DNA of 39,778 nucleotides, from the IMG/VR virus record IMGVR_UViG_3300021091_000168, positions 1-39,778 of that record; one strand, written 5' to 3'. Position 1 is the first letter of the stretch; the number at the start of each line of letters is the position of its first letter. The position numbers were made by a program, and so were the translations under genes. Positions 12,757-39,593 of the stretch are shown here, in pieces. The notes under the pieces were generated by a model. The model did no database searches, was not told the origin of the DNA, and was given only the letters and a program-made list of their open reading frames with translations. Source of the DNA: a virus.

Positions 12757-13962
12757 TTATGAAGTAACTGCGTATTGACCGGTCAAAGTAGTTGCATTAG
12801 CTCCCATGAGAGTCACAAGCTCTCCTCGGCTATCAATTTCCCCACTTTCATTTGCGGTGGATACGCTTGTAGTACCTACCAAGATCTGGCACAATTCAGG
12901 TCGCAGAATCCCAGTACCCTTGAGCATACTGGCAACTGTGAACTGAGTATTGCGACGAACATCTTGGACTGTATCTACCTTCATACCCATCAAGGACAAC
13001 CCAGCAACCGCTTCCTTTTGGAAGATCATTGCAAAAATATTAAACTTGCTGCAATCAAGGTTATACTTAGCTTCTCCAACCCCATTTGAACCAGAACTTA
13101 AATCTGTACGTGGAATGTGATTTGTTTTACAAATCTTCACACCCATGTAATCTAAGTAATCACCCATTGCATTCATTCCAGCAAAGCCAGCTGGACCAAC
13201 ACCACCATACGCCTGACCCGCTGTAAACATTGGGTTCTGGGTAAATTGGTTGCTTGCTCTTGGAATACCAAGCGCACGAATAACTTGGAATACTTTTGGT
13301 GTAACTACACAATGAACATCATTAATTGGGAAGTTTTTCTCTTGCATATTAACAAGATAATTCTCAATTGCTTGAAGAATGTTCAGTGCAGCAGTTTCTG
13401 TACAACCACTAACAGCTACACCAATAGCACTGGTAGTAGTGTCCACAACAACTGGTGCTGGGAAGTCGGCTTCAACAATACCTCGTGGATCGGAATTTAG
13501 TGGAGCAGCAACACAAGCACCAATTAGCGTAGAGATAATTTGCTTATCTCTTGCGGTTGCAAGTGTTAAACCAGCTTGTCTTGCAAGCTCGCTACGGTAG
13601 TCCCACTGAGTAACCAATAAATCTACATTATCAGTTTCAAAGTGTGCTGCCATAGGTCGCTTGTCAAGATTAATCTTGAAGGTTGTGCTGCTAGAATCAC
13701 CACCAACAAGCTCTACTCCAGCATTCCAGTTGGGTTGTAGTGAAACCTTACCCGTTACTGGGAATTCATAAGAAAACCCACCACTAAGTGATTTGTGGGT
13801 AATTAGGTTTTCAAACATATTGTACTCATCATACGCATTAATTACTTCGCCTGACCAAAGTGGTAGCCAAAGCTTGTTAGCTCCTGCTGCACCACCTGAT
13901 GGTCCATCTCCAACTGCTGTTCGCAGTGCTAACTCATCATGTGTTAAATTATCTCCTGGCAT
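12757..13962 (-). CDS. Major capsid protein, gp10-like (HK97 fold)
   Basis: This 401-aa protein sits between scaffold and terminator. The N-terminal region holds KLWLPLWSGEVINAYDEYNMF and the segment SYEFPVTGKVSLQPNWNAG, typical of T7-type capsids. A later stretch, KNFPINDVHCVVTPKVFQVIRALG, resembles the A-domain of this family, and a MGMKVDTVQDVRRNTQFTVA segment near the end is characteristic. It is longer than T7 gp10A (345 aa). No sign of a gp10B-type frameshift extension is seen, because the terminator follows closely. The RBS is TTAGGAGATTTTAAAATG. It assembles the icosahedral shell with the scaffold upstream. Confidence 0.93.
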   Translation of the reverse strand: MPGDNLTHDELALRTAVGDGPSGGAAGANKLWLPLWSGEVINAYDEYNMFENLITHKSLSGGFSYEFPVTGKVSLQPNWNAGVELVGGDSSSTTFKINLDKRPMAAHFETDNVDLLVTQWDYRSELARQAGLTLATARDKQIISTLIGACVAAPLNSDPRGIVEADFPAPVVVDTTTSAIGVAVSGCTETAALNILQAIENYLVNMQEKNFPINDVHCVVTPKVFQVIRALGIPRASNQFTQNPMFTAGQAYGGVGPAGFAGMNAMGDYLDYMGVKICKTNHIPRTDLSSGSNGVGEAKYNLDCSKFNIFAMIFQKEAVAGLSLMGMKVDTVQDVRRNTQFTVASMLKGTGILRPELCQILVGTTSVSTANESGEIDSRGELVTLMGANATTLTGQYAVTS

Positions 13963-14145: not shown

Positions 14146-14149
14146 TTAT
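14117..14149 (-). other. 10-bp stem-loop across the scaffold stop codon
   Basis: On the minus strand ATAAGTTTTC and GAAAACTTAT pair perfectly around a 13-base loop. The scaffold TAA (14148-14146) lies inside the 5' arm. No T-run follows, so it does not look like an intrinsic terminator. It could be an mRNA processing or stabilising structure upstream of the capsid message. Confidence 0.55.
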
Positions 14150-15111
14150 GGTTGTAGTTTATTAAAGTCAGTTTGCATCATTCGCCTTTCAACGGCTGCT
14201 CTAAACTTAGCATCTGTTGCAAACCTTGGATTGTTTCTTTCACTTGAGAATTCCCTTTTTGTCCTATAGGGCATATCGGGAACTTGGGTATTAGCTATAG
14301 AAGGTTTGTTTGTAGTTGGTGTTGTTGCTGGTTCTGTTCTTCGCATGTTTGGATTCTTCTTATCATACATGCTGTTAAGACCCATCAAAGCAATTTCCCA
14401 ATTAGGACTAGCTAAAGAAGCATTCATACTGTCTTGTTCTGGCTGAGTAAGATTCTTACTAGCCCATGTAAACAGCTTATTCAATTGTTCCCTACCACCA
14501 ATAACATCTGCTGCTTTACTGTAAGCCATTTCAAGTTTAGCTTTTTGACCTGTCATGTACTCGTTAATAACATATTCAGGCAACTTAGTTTTTTCTCTGA
14601 TTATAGCTTGGGTAGCATCGCTAAGTGTACCCTGAGTTGCATACTCAACAGTCCAGCTTTTCCAATCAGCCTCGCTAACGGAGGGGGAGACTTGGGGAGG
14701 TGCCTCAGGGGGTGTTTCCTGTTTTGGAATCCTGAGAACTTCTGGAATAGGCTTAGTTGTATCTTCAACAACTTTCGGTGGTTCTGGAGTTGGTTCTTTA
14801 TATTGTTTATTTACAGAACCTTGTTCAGCATATTGATTCTTTAGTGCAGCCAACTCTTGTCGTGACTTGGTATATTCCCGTTGTGCATTTTTTAAACTAT
14901 CAAACCAAGCACCCGCATCTTTAAAGTTTTCGGGAATCTTGTTACCATTGTTTTTAACATAAGCTTCAAATGCAAGTCTTTCTTTAGCATTCTGTACATC
15001 TTGCTCAGTAGAAACTAGGGATTGTTCCGAATTTTTAAGATCAGTTTGAGCCTGAGATTCAGGTTGTTCTGCTTGATATTCAAATTCTGGAGTCTCTTCA
15101 CTATCTGTCAT
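14146..15111 (-). CDS. Scaffolding protein, gp9-like
   Basis: This 321-aa protein (T7 gp9 is 307) lies directly upstream of the capsid. It is acidic at the N-terminus (SEETPEFEYQAEQPE), has a Pro/Glu/Lys-rich middle (PTPEPPKVVEDTTKPIPE, PKQETPPEAPP) and long helical segments. The C-terminal ~35 residues are basic (RTKREFSSERNN, RAAVERRMM), as expected for the capsid-binding end of a scaffold. A conserved gp9-like block covers DWKSWTVEYATQGTLSDATQ and the PEYVINEYMTGQ segment. It directs procapsid assembly and is then expelled. The start has AAGG upstream and follows closely on the 35-aa gene. Confidence 0.85.
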   Translation of the reverse strand: MTDSEETPEFEYQAEQPESQAQTDLKNSEQSLVSTEQDVQNAKERLAFEAYVKNNGNKIPENFKDAGAWFDSLKNAQREYTKSRQELAALKNQYAEQGSVNKQYKEPTPEPPKVVEDTTKPIPEVLRIPKQETPPEAPPQVSPSVSEADWKSWTVEYATQGTLSDATQAIIREKTKLPEYVINEYMTGQKAKLEMAYSKAADVIGGREQLNKLFTWASKNLTQPEQDSMNASLASPNWEIALMGLNSMYDKKNPNMRRTEPATTPTTNKPSIANTQVPDMPYRTKREFSSERNNPRFATDAKFRAAVERRMMQTDFNKLQP

Positions 15112-15113
15112 TC

Positions 15114-15221
15114 TTAACCTTTCTTTGTTTTGCTAGTAGCCTTAGGATTGACCTTGGCTTGTGCATGTTTACCAGTCAATCTGGTTGTTGTACCACAATT
15201 ACATTTAAATTTAGTTTTCAT
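15114..15221 (-). CDS. Tiny basic protein with CxC pair, 35 aa
   Basis: The frame reads MKTKFKCNCGTTTRL then a Lys/Thr-rich tail ending SKTKKG. The start overlaps the TGA of the previous gene (ATGA) and the stop is 3 bases before the scaffold ATG, so it occupies a full slot in the operon. The N-terminal KFKCNCG looks like half of a zinc ribbon, but there is no second Cys pair, so zinc binding would need dimerisation or a partner. Function is unknown. It is the last of four consecutive small Lys-rich genes between portal and scaffold. Confidence 0.68.
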   Translation of the reverse strand: MKTKFKCNCGTTTRLTGKHAQAKVNPKATSKTKKG

Positions 15222-15442
15222 TTCCAAGATACTCTCTTACCGGATTTCTTAGCACGAACACCTTTAGCTGTACACATTGATTTAGTTGGACGGCAAGCAG
15301 GATAAGAACCTTTACCAGCCTTGGAACGACCGCATGGTCCTCCTGTCTTACAGTTAATCCAACCCTTACCATTGTTTCGAGAAAACCAACCGTGTAAACC
15401 TTTCTTTTTTTCTAAAGAAAAATCAGCTTTTTTCTTTGCCAT
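15218..15442 (-). CDS. Small basic Cys-containing phage protein, 74 aa
   Basis: The protein is 74 aa, very rich in Lys, Gly and Ser, with four Cys. A core reads GWINCKTGGPCGRSKAG followed by YPACRPT. This Trp-x-x-Cys, Pro-Cys-Gly-Arg and Tyr-Pro-x-Cys-Arg-Pro pattern recurs in small proteins of marine and cyanobacterial phages and in DUF5872-like domains; the function is unknown. It may be a metal-binding or DNA-binding minor virion component. It overlaps the next gene by ATGA and is coupled at its start to the 99-aa gene (shared base at 15442). Confidence 0.75.
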   Translation of the reverse strand: MAKKKADFSLEKKKGLHGWFSRNNGKGWINCKTGGPCGRSKAGKGSYPACRPTKSMCTAKGVRAKKSGKRVSWK

Positions 15443-15741
15443 TACTTTTTACACTTTCTGTTTTTAGGGCAAGATGACTTAGAGCCACCAGACCCAGCCC
15501 ATAAATTCTTACAAGCCCAGTATCTAGCGGATAGTTTGTTGGTAGCTGAATCACATTTATGCCTAGCTTTAAAAGATTTTCTAGCACCGGCGCTATAGTT
15601 GTGACCATAACCCGTAGCACCATAGTGAATTATCTTTTCTTTACCATTAGCACAAGCTTTAACAACCCTTTTTTTATTGGGGTTAGGAGACTTGCGGGGT
15701 TTATTACAAGGCATACTAGCTTTATCTAATTTCTTTGCCAT
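15442..15741 (-). CDS. Small basic phage protein, 99 aa
   Basis: The start at 15741 was chosen over an upstream ATG because the protein then opens MAKKLDKASMPCNKPRKSPN. This is the form I recall for a recurring T7-like phage family with KPRKxPxxxKKxVVKAC, then GKEKIIHYGATGYGHN, then a SFKARHKCD...SARYWACKNLW block. Seven Cys and over 20 Lys are present. The second half (ARxxFKARHxxxxxxxKxSAxYWAxKxxW) is the best-conserved part in my memory of the family. Function is unknown, though linkage to the portal in many phages suggests a head or packaging role. Neighbours on both sides are also tiny and basic. Confidence 0.75.
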   Translation of the reverse strand: MAKKLDKASMPCNKPRKSPNPNKKRVVKACANGKEKIIHYGATGYGHNYSAGARKSFKARHKCDSATNKLSARYWACKNLWAGSGGSKSSCPKNRKCKK

Positions 15742-15742
15742 A

Positions 15743-15877
15743 TTATTTTTTTCCTTTACCCCAATTTTTAGCACCAACTTTTCGACATTTAACTAAAGCA
15801 CCGCTTGCATAAGCTGAAGGCCATTTAGTATATCTAGATTTTACTTTGTGATAACAAGCATCTTTTTTACTAGCCAT
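15743..15877 (-). CDS. Small basic phage protein, 44 aa
   Basis: The frame begins MASKKDACYHKVKSRYTKWP and continues SAYASGALVKCRKVGAKNWG before a Lys end. The start has AAGGATAATATT upstream; a longer in-frame ATG at 15946 would lie inside the portal gene and lacks an RBS. This compact CxxKVKxRxxxWPSAYASGxLVxCRKVGAxNxG unit is recurrent in phages of marine bacteria, always next to the portal or capsid in the cases I recall. Function is unknown. The two Cys are about 23 residues apart. It starts 5 bases after the portal stop. Confidence 0.75.
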   Translation of the reverse strand: MASKKDACYHKVKSRYTKWPSAYASGALVKCRKVGAKNWGKGKK

Positions 15878-15881
15878 AATA

Positions 15882-17465
15882 TTATCCTTGGAATGCTGAC
15901 ATATCAACGCCAGCGTTTTGTAATACATTAGCAACACCTTGACCACCTGTTTGCTCTATGTCTTGCATTGCAGCAGCAGTACCAGCTTTAGCCAATGTTT
16001 GTTGTGTGAGTTGTTGCTGTTGCAACATTTGTTCTTGAGCTTGTCGTTGTTGCATCATTTGTTGTTGTTCTTCTTCAGAGATAACCCAATTTCTTGAATC
16101 AAACCCTAAGGAAGATATCAATGCTTTAGCATATTCAGACCACTTAAAGGAACTAAGAGCAGACTCAGGAAGGTTGCGAACCATTTCTCCCATTTGCATT
16201 AGTTTCTGTAAGTCTGTATCTCTAGATAAAGCTTGTAAACCAGTAACAACTTCGATGTTTAATGTACCGTCTTTGTTAAAGAATTGGTCGTACATTCTTT
16301 TATCTAAAGAACCATCTTCAATCATTAAGAAAACCGTTCTCTTAATAATGGGTTCAAGTAAATCCCTAGCTATGGCAGAGAACGCACCGCCAAGAATGGT
16401 TTCTAATTCTGAACCAATCATTCTAACAGCAGTAGCAGTAACCCTGTCTCCACTAGGGATAGCACTAGCAGACATTAGGAAAGCCTGACCAATCTCACGA
16501 CGCATAACTTCCACTGCTGTTTGTGCTGCTGAAATTTGAGTGTTCATTGTTTGACTGGGGGACAACACGAACACATCTTCTCTTCTAGCAGGGACCCAAG
16601 AGCCATTAGATTGACTGGCTACGTCATCAATCTCCGTGATACCACTGGGATCTAGGCACATCCAGAATGCCGTAGAAGCAGCCATACCATCAAGCATTGC
16701 TTTGGTATATGAATCTAAAGACTGAAGATCACCAAGGGTATCTTCACAATGGGATCTACCATAGTTTTCACCTGCTACACCATACCATCTTAAGATAGAC
16801 ATGGGGGCAATTTCATAAACACCTTCAGCTAATAAATCACCATCTGCATTTTCTTTTCTATAATCCCAATTACCATCTTTGTTTAACATTAGTTGACAGA
16901 ACTGTTTTTCATATCCTTGTTTTTCTACACCAAACATTTGATATGAAATAGCATCTTCATTTTGTAAAGCATATTCTATAAAAATAATTTCTTGAACAGA
17001 ACCATCAACAGCTCGTTGAACTACATAATGATCTAGTCGTGTGGATCTAAACTTATAATCATCTTCTAAATGTATTAAAGAATCTCCAACAACAATCAAT
17101 GATTGAATAGCTTGATATACAACTTCTCTTAGATTGGTAGATGACAATCTTCTATATACTTGGTAACATAAAGTTTCAAGGTATGCTTTTATTTCAACAG
17201 AAGGATCAACACCAGACTTAAGATTAAATTTAAAGAATGGTGTATCGTTTACAGGCATCATAGCAGACAACATTCTACTAGCTAAAGAAGTAACCCCCCG
17301 CGAACCAACTGAAGAAAAGGGTTGGGGCAGCATTTGTTCTTCGGTCCACCCCTCTGGAGGTAGTAGAGATGGAATGGTTAATGCAGCACAGTACCTTGAT
17401 CTAACAAGTTTAGAGTTTCGGTTTGAGTGTAATCTAGAAAATCTATCTGCTAAAGAATTTTTCAT
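15882..17465 (-). CDS. Portal protein, gp8-like head-tail connector
   Basis: The protein is 527 aa (T7 gp8 is 536). The N-terminus reads LADRFSRLHSNRN...RSRYCAALTIPSLLPPEG, then VGSRGVTSLASRMLSAMMPVNDTPFFKF, the standard opening of podophage portals. The middle has LIHLEDDYKFRSTRLDHYVV and YGRSHCEDTLGDLQSL. GDRVTATAVRMIGSELETILGGAFSAIARDLLEPI-type sequence occurs near residues 340-375. The C-terminus is very Gln-rich (EEEQQQMMQQRQAQEQMLQQ), a common feature of this family. The dodecameric ring forms the DNA entry vertex and binds gp11. The start is 2 bases after the previous stop. Confidence 0.94.
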   Translation of the reverse strand: MKNSLADRFSRLHSNRNSKLVRSRYCAALTIPSLLPPEGWTEEQMLPQPFSSVGSRGVTSLASRMLSAMMPVNDTPFFKFNLKSGVDPSVEIKAYLETLCYQVYRRLSSTNLREVVYQAIQSLIVVGDSLIHLEDDYKFRSTRLDHYVVQRAVDGSVQEIIFIEYALQNEDAISYQMFGVEKQGYEKQFCQLMLNKDGNWDYRKENADGDLLAEGVYEIAPMSILRWYGVAGENYGRSHCEDTLGDLQSLDSYTKAMLDGMAASTAFWMCLDPSGITEIDDVASQSNGSWVPARREDVFVLSPSQTMNTQISAAQTAVEVMRREIGQAFLMSASAIPSGDRVTATAVRMIGSELETILGGAFSAIARDLLEPIIKRTVFLMIEDGSLDKRMYDQFFNKDGTLNIEVVTGLQALSRDTDLQKLMQMGEMVRNLPESALSSFKWSEYAKALISSLGFDSRNWVISEEEQQQMMQQRQAQEQMLQQQQLTQQTLAKAGTAAAMQDIEQTGGQGVANVLQNAGVDMSAFQG

Positions 17466-37967: not shown

Positions 37968-38314
37968 TGTTCTAGTTCCTTACTTAGTTTCCTAGCACCC
38001 GTAACCATCCAACTTTTGGATACGATACAACTAAACCAATCTTGAAGGGATGGAATCCATCCAATATCTTCTATTACATGTTGTTCTCCAATCCATCGGA
38101 CTGGGATTTCTTTACCATCACTGTTTGTAATGGTATGTCCAAAGTGTCTTTCACAATCCATAATACCAGTAGCATGATGTCGATATGCTCTGTGTCTTGG
38201 ATCAGCCATGACACCTTTGGAACTGTCAAACCAATCGTGGATATCCTGATAATCTTCAGGCTTTCCACCAAACTTCTTTACACTAGACAGTGCATGATGA
38301 TACGGATTAGCCAT
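37946..38314 (-). CDS. DUF6915-like protein
   Basis: The protein is 122 aa with a strong recognisable pattern: NPYHHALSSVKKFGGKPEDY, IHDWFDSSKGVMADPRHRAY, HHATGIMDCERHFGHTITNS, VRWIGEQHVIEDIGWIPSLQ and a Trp-rich end. Many conserved His, Asp and Glu residues suggest a metal site. Proteins with this pattern are called DUF6915 in my memory and are found in phages and bacteria. No activity is known. It starts by 8-base overlap with the end of the DUF6878-like triplet. Confidence 0.72.
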   Translation of the reverse strand: MANPYHHALSSVKKFGGKPEDYQDIHDWFDSSKGVMADPRHRAYRHHATGIMDCERHFGHTITNSDGKEIPVRWIGEQHVIEDIGWIPSLQDWFSCIVSKSWMVTGARKLSKELEQCSTAIQ

Positions 38315-38735
38315 TTTCTTTCATCCAATCTGGAATCTTTAGTAAATCCCATGATGTTGCGATGTATTCTTTTTGTTCTACGATCTCATATTCAGAGTGG
38401 TCAATTCTAATAATGTTATCCTTTATAGTCCACTCCCAATATCCAGTACCTTCATTTATTTCATAACCTGCAAAATGATCGTATATGTGAGAACCTATTA
38501 GGTTAGCAAGCCTGTGAAAGTATCTACAATACATATGTTCTTTCTTTCTAACAGGATCGATCCAAGAAGCCTCATATTTAGTTCCATCCTCAAGAATAAA
38601 GGAGATTTCTTCTACACCACCTTCATGAAGGTGGCATAGAATATCTCCACCCCCCTGATAAAAAGCTTTTACAACAGCTATGTTGTTATTGACTAGCCAT
38701 TCTCTAATCTTTTCTTTTATGAGTATCTCAGTCAT
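38307..38735 (-). CDS. DUF6878-like paralogue 3 of 3
   Basis: The protein is 142 aa, with EKIREWLVNNNIAVVKAFYQ, GGGDILCHLHEGGVEEISFI, LIGSHIYDHFAGYEINEGTG, YWEWTIKDNIIRIDHSEYEI. The Gly-Gly-Gly-Asp and Gly-Tyr/Trp-Glu-x-Asn-Glu-Gly-x-Gly-x-(W/Y)-Glu-W segments match DUF6878-like proteins. It is nearest in sequence to the middle copy and has an insertion of about 6 residues before GVEEISF. It overlaps the next gene by 8 bases in the same way as the other copies. Function is unknown. Confidence 0.7.
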   Translation of the reverse strand: MTEILIKEKIREWLVNNNIAVVKAFYQGGGDILCHLHEGGVEEISFILEDGTKYEASWIDPVRKKEHMYCRYFHRLANLIGSHIYDHFAGYEINEGTGYWEWTIKDNIIRIDHSEYEIVEQKEYIATSWDLLKIPDWMKENG

Positions 38736-39120
38736 TTTCTTTCATCCAATCTGATGTTGCGATGCGATGTTTGTGTGCTATAATCTCATATTGAGAGTGA
38801 TCTATTCTAACAATGTTATCCTTTATAGTCCACTCCCACCATCCACTACCACCTTCATTGTTTTCGTAACCTGAAAAGTTATTATACACATGAGAATCAA
38901 TCAGGTTAGCAAGTTCAACAAAGAATGAACAATACATATGTTCTTTCTTGATAGGGGGATCGACCCAAGAAGCTTGGTATTCAGTTCCATCTTCAAGTAT
39001 AAAAGAGATTTTTTCTACACAACCTTCATCTCCAGATCCTTCATAAAAAGCTTTTACAATGGCTATGTTGTTATTGACTAGCCATTCTCTAATCTTTTCT
39101 TTAGTGTGTATCTCAACCAT
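38728..39120 (-). CDS. DUF6878-like paralogue 2 of 3
   Basis: The protein is 130 aa. It has EKIREWLVNNNIAIVKAFYE, GSGDEGCVEKISFILEDGTE, SHVYNNFSGYENNEGGSG and WWEWTIKDNIVRIDHSQY. It is very close to copy 3 (many identical stretches at both protein and DNA level) and more distant from copy 1. The 8-base overlap with each neighbour comes from an AAAATGNNTRA junction. It has SGDE as in typical DUF6878 members. Function is unknown. Confidence 0.72.
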   Translation of the reverse strand: MVEIHTKEKIREWLVNNNIAIVKAFYEGSGDEGCVEKISFILEDGTEYQASWVDPPIKKEHMYCSFFVELANLIDSHVYNNFSGYENNEGGSGWWEWTIKDNIVRIDHSQYEIIAHKHRIATSDWMKEND

Positions 39121-39490
39121 TTCTTTTTATCCATTCTGGAATCTCGATACTATTCCAATCAGTTTCAGCATATTCATTTTCTTCAATCAGTTGTGTATGA
39201 TTGATTGAAACAACACCTGTATTTACATCCCATTCCCAATACCCACTGCCACCACCATTTATTTCCCACCCTGGGAATGTTTTATACACATGACTGTTTA
39301 TAAGTAAATCAAGATCGTTGTATAACACAAAATTGGAATCTGATTTTAGATCGTTTCCCGATAGGCATTTATCTTCTGTATTATAAAACTCAATCTCATC
39401 TACACTACCTTCATCTCCAGAGCCACGATAATAGGCTCTTACAGTGGCTATGTTGTTACTGATTAGCCATTCTCTGATTTCATTTTTCAT
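39113..39490 (-). CDS. DUF6878-like paralogue 1 of 3
   Basis: The start at 39490 (MKNEIREWLISNNIATVRAY) gives 125 aa. It includes YYRGSGDEGSVDEIEFYNTE, INSHVYKTFPGWEINGGGSG and YWEWDVNTGVVSINHTQLIE. This is the copy closest to the DUF6878 pattern (SGDSG...I....; pGWEnneGg.G...wdv....I.l.H). It is the most diverged from the other two. An upstream Met at 39532 lies inside the 37-aa membrane protein and lacks an RBS. Function is unknown. Confidence 0.7.
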   Translation of the reverse strand: MKNEIREWLISNNIATVRAYYRGSGDEGSVDEIEFYNTEDKCLSGNDLKSDSNFVLYNDLDLLINSHVYKTFPGWEINGGGSGYWEWDVNTGVVSINHTQLIEENEYAETDWNSIEIPEWIKRNG

Positions 39491-39593
39491 TTTTACACTT
39501 TCTGTAAACAGGATAGAGAAGCAAACCAACAATCAATCCCACAACAGGATTGATTATAGACACACAAAGTACGATAAACAAAAGAGCTATCAT
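39480..39593 (-). CDS. Single-span membrane protein, 37 aa
   Basis: The frame is MIALLFIVLCVSIINPVVGL followed by IVGLLLYPVYRKCKNEK. The first ~27 residues are hydrophobic and the tail is basic, predicting one membrane span with a cytoplasmic C-terminus. The ATG overlaps the stop of the 56-aa gene as TAATG. It is small and has no similarity that I recognise. It could be a membrane-acting early protein. Confidence 0.6.
   Translation of the reverse strand: MIALLFIVLCVSIINPVVGLIVGLLLYPVYRKCKNEK

Follow-up and report, generated by a model that had tools for sequence, protein, structure and literature searches.

Four consecutive small genes, all rich in lysine and cysteine, lie between the portal and scaffold genes of a viral sequence of 39,778 nucleotides (IMG/VR record IMGVR_UViG_3300021091_000168, the whole of which we refer to as the window), and one of them encodes a stand-alone relative of a domain that other phages carry within a predicted capsid protease and a portal-MuF protein. 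Our preferred reading, to which we assign a probability of roughly 45%, is that the four products are accessory head-interior proteins that enter the procapsid through the portal or the scaffold. We letter them D, C, B and A, in the order of their transcription, and list them here with their flanks.

15882..17465, minus strand: portal (head-tail connector), the upstream flank; matches PF12236 at 7.9e-51 and phrog_449 at 1.2e-99.
15743..15877, minus strand: gene D, 44 aa with 2 Cys; D module, phrog_727 at 7.3e-19.
15442..15741, minus strand: gene C, 99 aa; a Tlr6F/DUF5754 relative that stands alone, its 6 Cys falling into three pairs.
15218..15442, minus strand: gene B, 74 aa with 4 Cys in two pairs; B module.
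15114..15221, minus strand: gene A, 35 aa with 2 Cys; CxCG module.
14146..15111, minus strand: scaffold, the downstream flank; matches phrog_1052 ('head assembly') at 2.4e-20.
12757..13962, minus strand: major capsid protein, next downstream; its family profile matches the annotated major capsid protein of P-SCSP2.

The first-pass annotation had described four consecutive tiny Lys/Cys-rich reading frames, tightly spaced between portal and scaffold, and that description is correct. C and B overlap by 1 base and B and A by 4, and a Shine-Dalgarno-like AAGGA or AAAGGA stands 5' of D and of C, the corresponding signal being less clear for B and A. In the four proteins 20-26% of residues are lysine, whereas the 35 other genes of the window have a median of 6.4% and reach at most 13.2%; the predicted pI of the four is 10.3-10.6. 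In 16 comparisons with relatives, pN/pS of the four genes ranged from 0.01 to 0.42, from which we conclude that all four are real genes, under purifying selection as proteins. Gene A has no match in Pfam, PHROGs or NCBIfam, and an NCBIfam search with all four proteins returned none.

Protein C aligns (hhalign) with residues 530-606 of the portal-InPase-MuF protein of CL131 (phrog_220), a cyanophage protein, at E 5.7e-17 and 46% identity, and with the C-terminus of ICP1 gp125 (phrog_9979) at E 1.6e-7, probability 93.9 and 28% identity. The N-terminal part of gp125 is Peptidase_S78_2/XkdF (6.6e-10), its gene stands between portal-like and capsid genes, and published work on ICP1 assigns gp122-126 to capsid morphogenesis, with gp125 as a predicted protease (PMC7567579). 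Procapsid-like particles of ICP1 have been produced in E. coli BL21 from gp124, gp123 and gp122 (PMC10945586). The gp125 domain thus shares with C a place in a head gene cluster but, unlike C, is fused to the predicted S78_2 protease, while the CL131 domain differs from C in forming part of a single polypeptide of 1393 aa; neither domain has any of the cysteines of C. When the CL131 domain was used in a tblastn search it matched 108 phage records, 90 of them from Vibrio and 13 from Aeromonas phages, and among the 40 matches listed were 14 titled 'capsid protease', two 'Peptidase_S78_2' and one 'serine protease'. Library searches with the N-terminal parts of nine further C-bearing reading frames gave no partner of named function. 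The earlier suggestion of a minor head association is supported by the position of the genes and by these fusions of the C domain to a predicted capsid protease and a portal-MuF protein; its companion claim, that such proteins recur in phages of aquatic hosts, is borne out by the relatives found.

The same homologies bear on a second explanation, in which the four proteins are small effectors that are packaged and injected, acting early on the host and having no role in the head. The Portal-InPase-MuF build of the CL131 protein is one discussed for injected polyvalent proteins (PMC5512222), and such cargo would sit comfortably with a cassette that is dispensable in one relative and an interval of variable length (both described below). 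Yet searches of Pfam, PHROGs and NCBIfam found no enzyme family in A-D, and a C domain joined to a predicted capsid protease points to assembly more readily than to attack. Polyvalent proteins hold several domains per polypeptide, as the CL131 relative does, whereas the window genes are single small modules. We regard the cargo explanation as unlikely.

What family C belongs to is a matter of intermediates. Window C itself scores 14.1 bits against DUF5754 (PF19058), under the cut-off of 27.4, and a search of the window record for the Tlr6F/DUF5754 family gave no match. Among 43 aligned C relatives and C-domain proteins, however, 26 match the DUF5754 profile at E<=1 (best 2.2e-11), and a Flavobacterium phage member (L178) scores 76.5 bits against a C profile built without it. 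Our assignment of C to the Tlr6F superfamily is accordingly a transitive one, made through these intermediates and not on a direct Pfam score. DUF5754 is equated with Tlr6F in a 2025 paper (PMC12220804), and in 2015 Tlr6F was reported from nearly all Polinton-like viruses, several virophages, many Megavirales and some phages, as a small conserved protein of unassigned function and with no similarity to domains of known structure or function (PMC4642659). Window C is likewise a small protein, differing in its six paired cysteines and lysine-rich end. Seven of the 43 proteins also match DUF6321 weakly (best E 0.0018), and so DUF6321 and the C family may be related.

An AlphaFold model of C built from 82 sequences (pLDDT 81.7, pTM 0.71) has two strands and two helices, giving a predicted beta-beta-alpha-alpha fold. 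The cysteine pairs of C stand at residues 12-30, 63-77 and 91-97, the last of them in the low-confidence tail of the model. Among solved structures, a sequence search gave no match better than E 0.19, and comparison of the model produced nothing at E<=0.001 with Foldseek or at Z>=2 with VIA-align. Among predicted viral structures, the model matched ICP1 ORF125 (E 1.2e-4), an XkdF-named protein (3.6e-4), a ChaB-named protein (8.3e-4) and, at E 4.3e-6, an entry of 1393 aa, the length of the CL131 portal protein. Foldseek also returned Tunisvirus V9SE36 (E 7.4e-3) and Chloriridovirus W8QE68 (5.8e-2), which are at most candidate giant-virus members of DUF5754. By linking C with both a predicted capsid protease and a portal-MuF protein, these results offer Tlr6F a testable place, the procapsid interior; no publication making that link was found in a literature search, most subscription-journal papers being outside its reach.

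Proteins D and B cover different parts of one Pfam profile, DUF5872 (PF19197), D matching positions 7-39 and B positions 47-88, weakly in both cases (17.6 and 16.5 bits, under the cut-off of 27.5); unlike in DUF5872, in the window the two parts are encoded by distinct genes that flank C. Published gene lists include a DUF5872 protein in the alga virus CpV-BQ1 (PMC12085832). Elsewhere the modules share polypeptides: among 570 unique module reading frames, counted with a B profile that contained the B-like piece of S-SM2, there are 20 of type B-D, three D-B, one D-C and two B-D-C, the last being single reading frames of 298 aa (L186) and 368 aa (L199). One further reading frame (L276:3677-4498) contains C together with a B-like and a D-like piece (PSAYANAWASKWYKEHGGDWK), both pieces being recognised by eye. 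The AlphaFold model of B was poor (pLDDT 62.1) and was discarded.

The cyanomyovirus protein T4-GC119 (phrog_727; S-SM1, S-SM2) likewise combines a D module with a B-like part. Profile searches of the S-SM1 protein gave 4.1e-29 for D and 3e-11 for the B-like part, scores that are inflated in that both profiles held pieces of the S-SM2 orthologue. The D link is strong, phrog_727 matching both proteins, and the B link is weaker: the B-like part of S-SM2 is 26% identical to window B, and phrog_12753 gives 6.5e-33 for the S-SM2 protein against 0.005 for window B. Unlike the window genes, T4-GC119 is encoded between terminase subunit genes, and in S-SM2 it also contains DUF192 and DUF6321. In the cyanopodovirus P-SCSP2, small D-like, B and (by eye) DUF6321-like genes lie between the scaffold and capsid genes.

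Evidence on virion location comes from these relatives. In S-SM1 virions 41 proteins were detected, and these and their orthologues are marked in Fig. 1 of the paper concerned, which counts gp4, 14, 21, 53 and GC15 among the newly found virion proteins (PMC3037559). The S-SM2 record carries the remark 'similar to Synechococcus phage S-SM1 protein' on 15 coding sequences in two stretches (11 of 52 features and 4 of 63 coding sequences): gp53, gp4, GC15, a PA14 protein, VrlC, gp13, gp14, gp15, GC119, gp18, gp19, gp20, gp21, gp23 and gp3. Twelve of the 15 belong to the head, neck, tail or baseplate or are otherwise named as virion genes. No replication gene carries the remark, which is missing from gp32, gp59, gp44, gp45, gp46 and gp47 in the same stretches. 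It is an imperfect virion mark, since it is also missing from the structural gp7, gp8, gp22 and gp26. The remark probably marks detection in S-SM1 virions, and T4-GC119 was then likely detected in them. The CL131 portal, ORF012, is among 23 virion proteins identified by LC-MS/MS (PMC6293099).

These detections help to weigh a third explanation, that A-D are assembly factors which bridge portal and scaffold within the procapsid but do not remain in the mature virion. Genes placed between portal and scaffold, and a C domain joined, in the head gene cluster of ICP1, to what is predicted to be a maturation protease, are what such factors would lead one to expect. The detection of CL131 ORF012, as reported, and of T4-GC119, as deduced from the database remark, nevertheless concerns purified particles, and the cassette has been lost from a close relative; we consider this explanation quite unlikely. 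ICP1 gp125 was not found in the virion protein lists searched. In S-SZBM1, 11 tested proteins of the packaging and portal region contain no A-D module, and its virion list is thus uninformative here. S-CREM2 gp137 (4 virion peptides) has a DUF6321-like end by eye only, with no B or D above noise. The cyanopodovirus P-SCSP1u has a DUF6321-type relative after its capsid gene, and the cryo-EM report on that phage describes a map with no cement protein (PMC10575957). A literature search on lysine-rich small proteins found none.

The place of the cassette is kept across most of the phage group. Among 56 dereplicated contigs whose portal and scaffold genes share a strand, 52 have C in the interval between the two, 45 have D, 45 have B and 43 have A; this count is biased, many contigs having been found through C or B, and it leaves out P-SCSP2 (L008), in which B follows the scaffold. 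The commonest order in this set is C-D-B-A (32 contigs), the window's D-C-B-A occurring in four. In a set seeded by the portal instead (22 loci in 9 clusters), all four genes are present in five clusters; contig L025 is the only member of its cluster with modules (A, D and B), none being found in the seven other contigs of that cluster or in L014, L019 and L027, while the sequence of L013 stops ahead of the cassette position. L014 is a close relative, its flanks being 91% and 96% identical to those of the window, and it has 24 bases (2628-2651) in place of the window's 692 (15193-15884), a replacement that removes D, C and B together with the start of A. The cassette is therefore dispensable, unless it lies elsewhere in the L014 genome, of which the contig covers 4279 bases.

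Beyond the group, distant B and C loci have mixed neighbours (ferredoxin, terminase, RNR, endolysin, tail fibre), in a scan that set aside clusters with a window-type portal or capsid and took in 97 of the 177 neighbour genes around 54 B loci and 74 of the 249 around 71 C loci. A second module, encoded on the same strand no more than 1.5 kb away, was found at 62 of 68 B, 37 of 77 D and 18 of 78 C loci (dereplicated, wide scan), and in the near-relative sets at 40 of 41 B and 30 of 42 C loci. These related-locus searches kept the best 80 of 543, 149, 583, 574 and 572 relatives, so that the wide sets lean towards near relatives. Two short C patterns sought in 84,980 species genomes gave 63 loci, all but two in records titled MAG, many of which may be viral contigs. 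The first-pass annotation had proposed testing podophages for consistent portal linkage; position is indeed kept in most contigs of the phage group, but the cassette is lost in one close relative and its distant kin adjoin varied genes. Portal linkage of the cassette is lineage-specific.

Such variability raises the alternative that A-D are mere passengers, carried at a hot spot for insertions and having no function in the head. The interval between portal and scaffold ranges from 64 to 10355 bases among relatives, some of which hold other inserts, and distant relatives adjoin varied genes, much as passengers might. We nevertheless think passenger genes improbable, given the purifying selection on all four, the repeated clustering and fusion of B, D and C, and the fusions of C to head proteins, and we retain the head-interior reading.

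Several features of these loci are recorded here for their own sake. The other portal-scaffold inserts (L137:5226-8470, L134:6352-9690 and L027:2971-5486) encode a protein of ∼175-186 aa that begins with MIHTHTM, as well as large proteins (447-737 aa), none matching a Pfam family above cut-off. Some relatives (L047:6165-6422, L061:6165-6422, L057:6237-6416 and L059:4193-4312) have a further tiny basic module (MPFKS..QQRKFMYAVHPKIAARWSKETPKG) at or next to the position of D, and the L047 copy has no Pfam match. The records of Roseobacter phage SIO1 and of CRP-901/902 show no annotated gene at the sites of C and B, respectively, and in CRP-2 the gene annotated over B is in a different frame (L001:5001-5246, L007:5001-5189 and L181:2329-2505).

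The cysteines, which the first-pass annotation had called conserved-looking and had thought possibly metal-bound, turn out to be conserved in part. The two of D are kept in 157 of 157 unique sequences and Cys2 and Cys3 of B in 147 of 147, counts from which domains without the core motif were dropped, some hits being frame-shifted chance frames. The other cysteines vary, and do so in pairs. In the 144 B sequences with a residue at both sites, Cys1 and Cys4 are both present in 106 and both absent in 38, and never does one occur alone. In the 201 sequences of C, counting those with a residue at both sites, agreement within pairs is 175/177 for Cys1-2, 201/201 for Cys3-4 and 119/119 for Cys5-6, against disagreement in 35-49 rows for cysteines of different pairs. 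Mapped on a tree, joint changes within pairs number three for C1-2, three for C3-4, two for C5-6 and one for B1-4, while all 12 cross-pair combinations in C have none; single-partner changes number 1 and 3 for C1-2 and 1 and 1 for C5-6, the latter pair being one whose count gaps make uncertain. Among the results listed, a formal sign test of these changes did not reach significance, the events being too few, and for that reason we treat the paired-cysteine evidence as suggestive.

Paired gain and loss favours disulfides over one obligate four-ligand zinc site. A zinc finger or ribbon was considered as the main reading and rejected, since four ligands are not kept together and the cysteines vary as pairs. 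The CxCG and four-Cys patterns, with the high charge, would suit zinc proteins that bind nucleic acid and do not belong to the virion, such as late regulators; set against these patterns are the separate variation of the pairs, the persistence of the C domain in relatives without its cysteines, and the fact that D has only two conserved Cys (157/157). We give this explanation little credence, and metal binding as earlier proposed is not supported.

Returning to A-D as accessory head-interior proteins, the course of events we envisage is as follows. Judging from gene order, the four would be made late, together with portal and scaffold. C would dock on the portal or the scaffold and so enter the procapsid, as the protease and portal-MuF fusions suggest, and B and D would cooperate with it, as one may expect of modules that are joined in one polypeptide elsewhere. 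The lysine-rich ends, from their charge, may then lie against the packaged DNA, and the paired cysteines could form disulfides in oxidising water, holding the tiny folds together. The proteins may remain in the head or accompany the DNA into the next cell, and would be helpful but dispensable. Counting against this reading are the loss of the cassette from L014, the several portal-seeded contigs that have no module, the varied surroundings of distant B and C loci, the 60 of 78 wide-scan C loci with no second module close by, and the lack of a cement protein in the P-SCSP1u map. More speculatively, Tlr6F and its DUF5872-type partners might be a head-interior docking and DNA-contact module common to tailed phages, giant viruses and Polinton-like viruses, with optional disulfides where particles spend long in oxidising water. 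We hold this broader proposal to be doubtful; if it were true, the window cassette would be its minimal, unfused form.

Elsewhere in the window, at 38307-39532, three adjoining genes of 130-142 aa resemble tandem paralogues by eye, sharing the start motif REWLxxNNIAxVxAxY.
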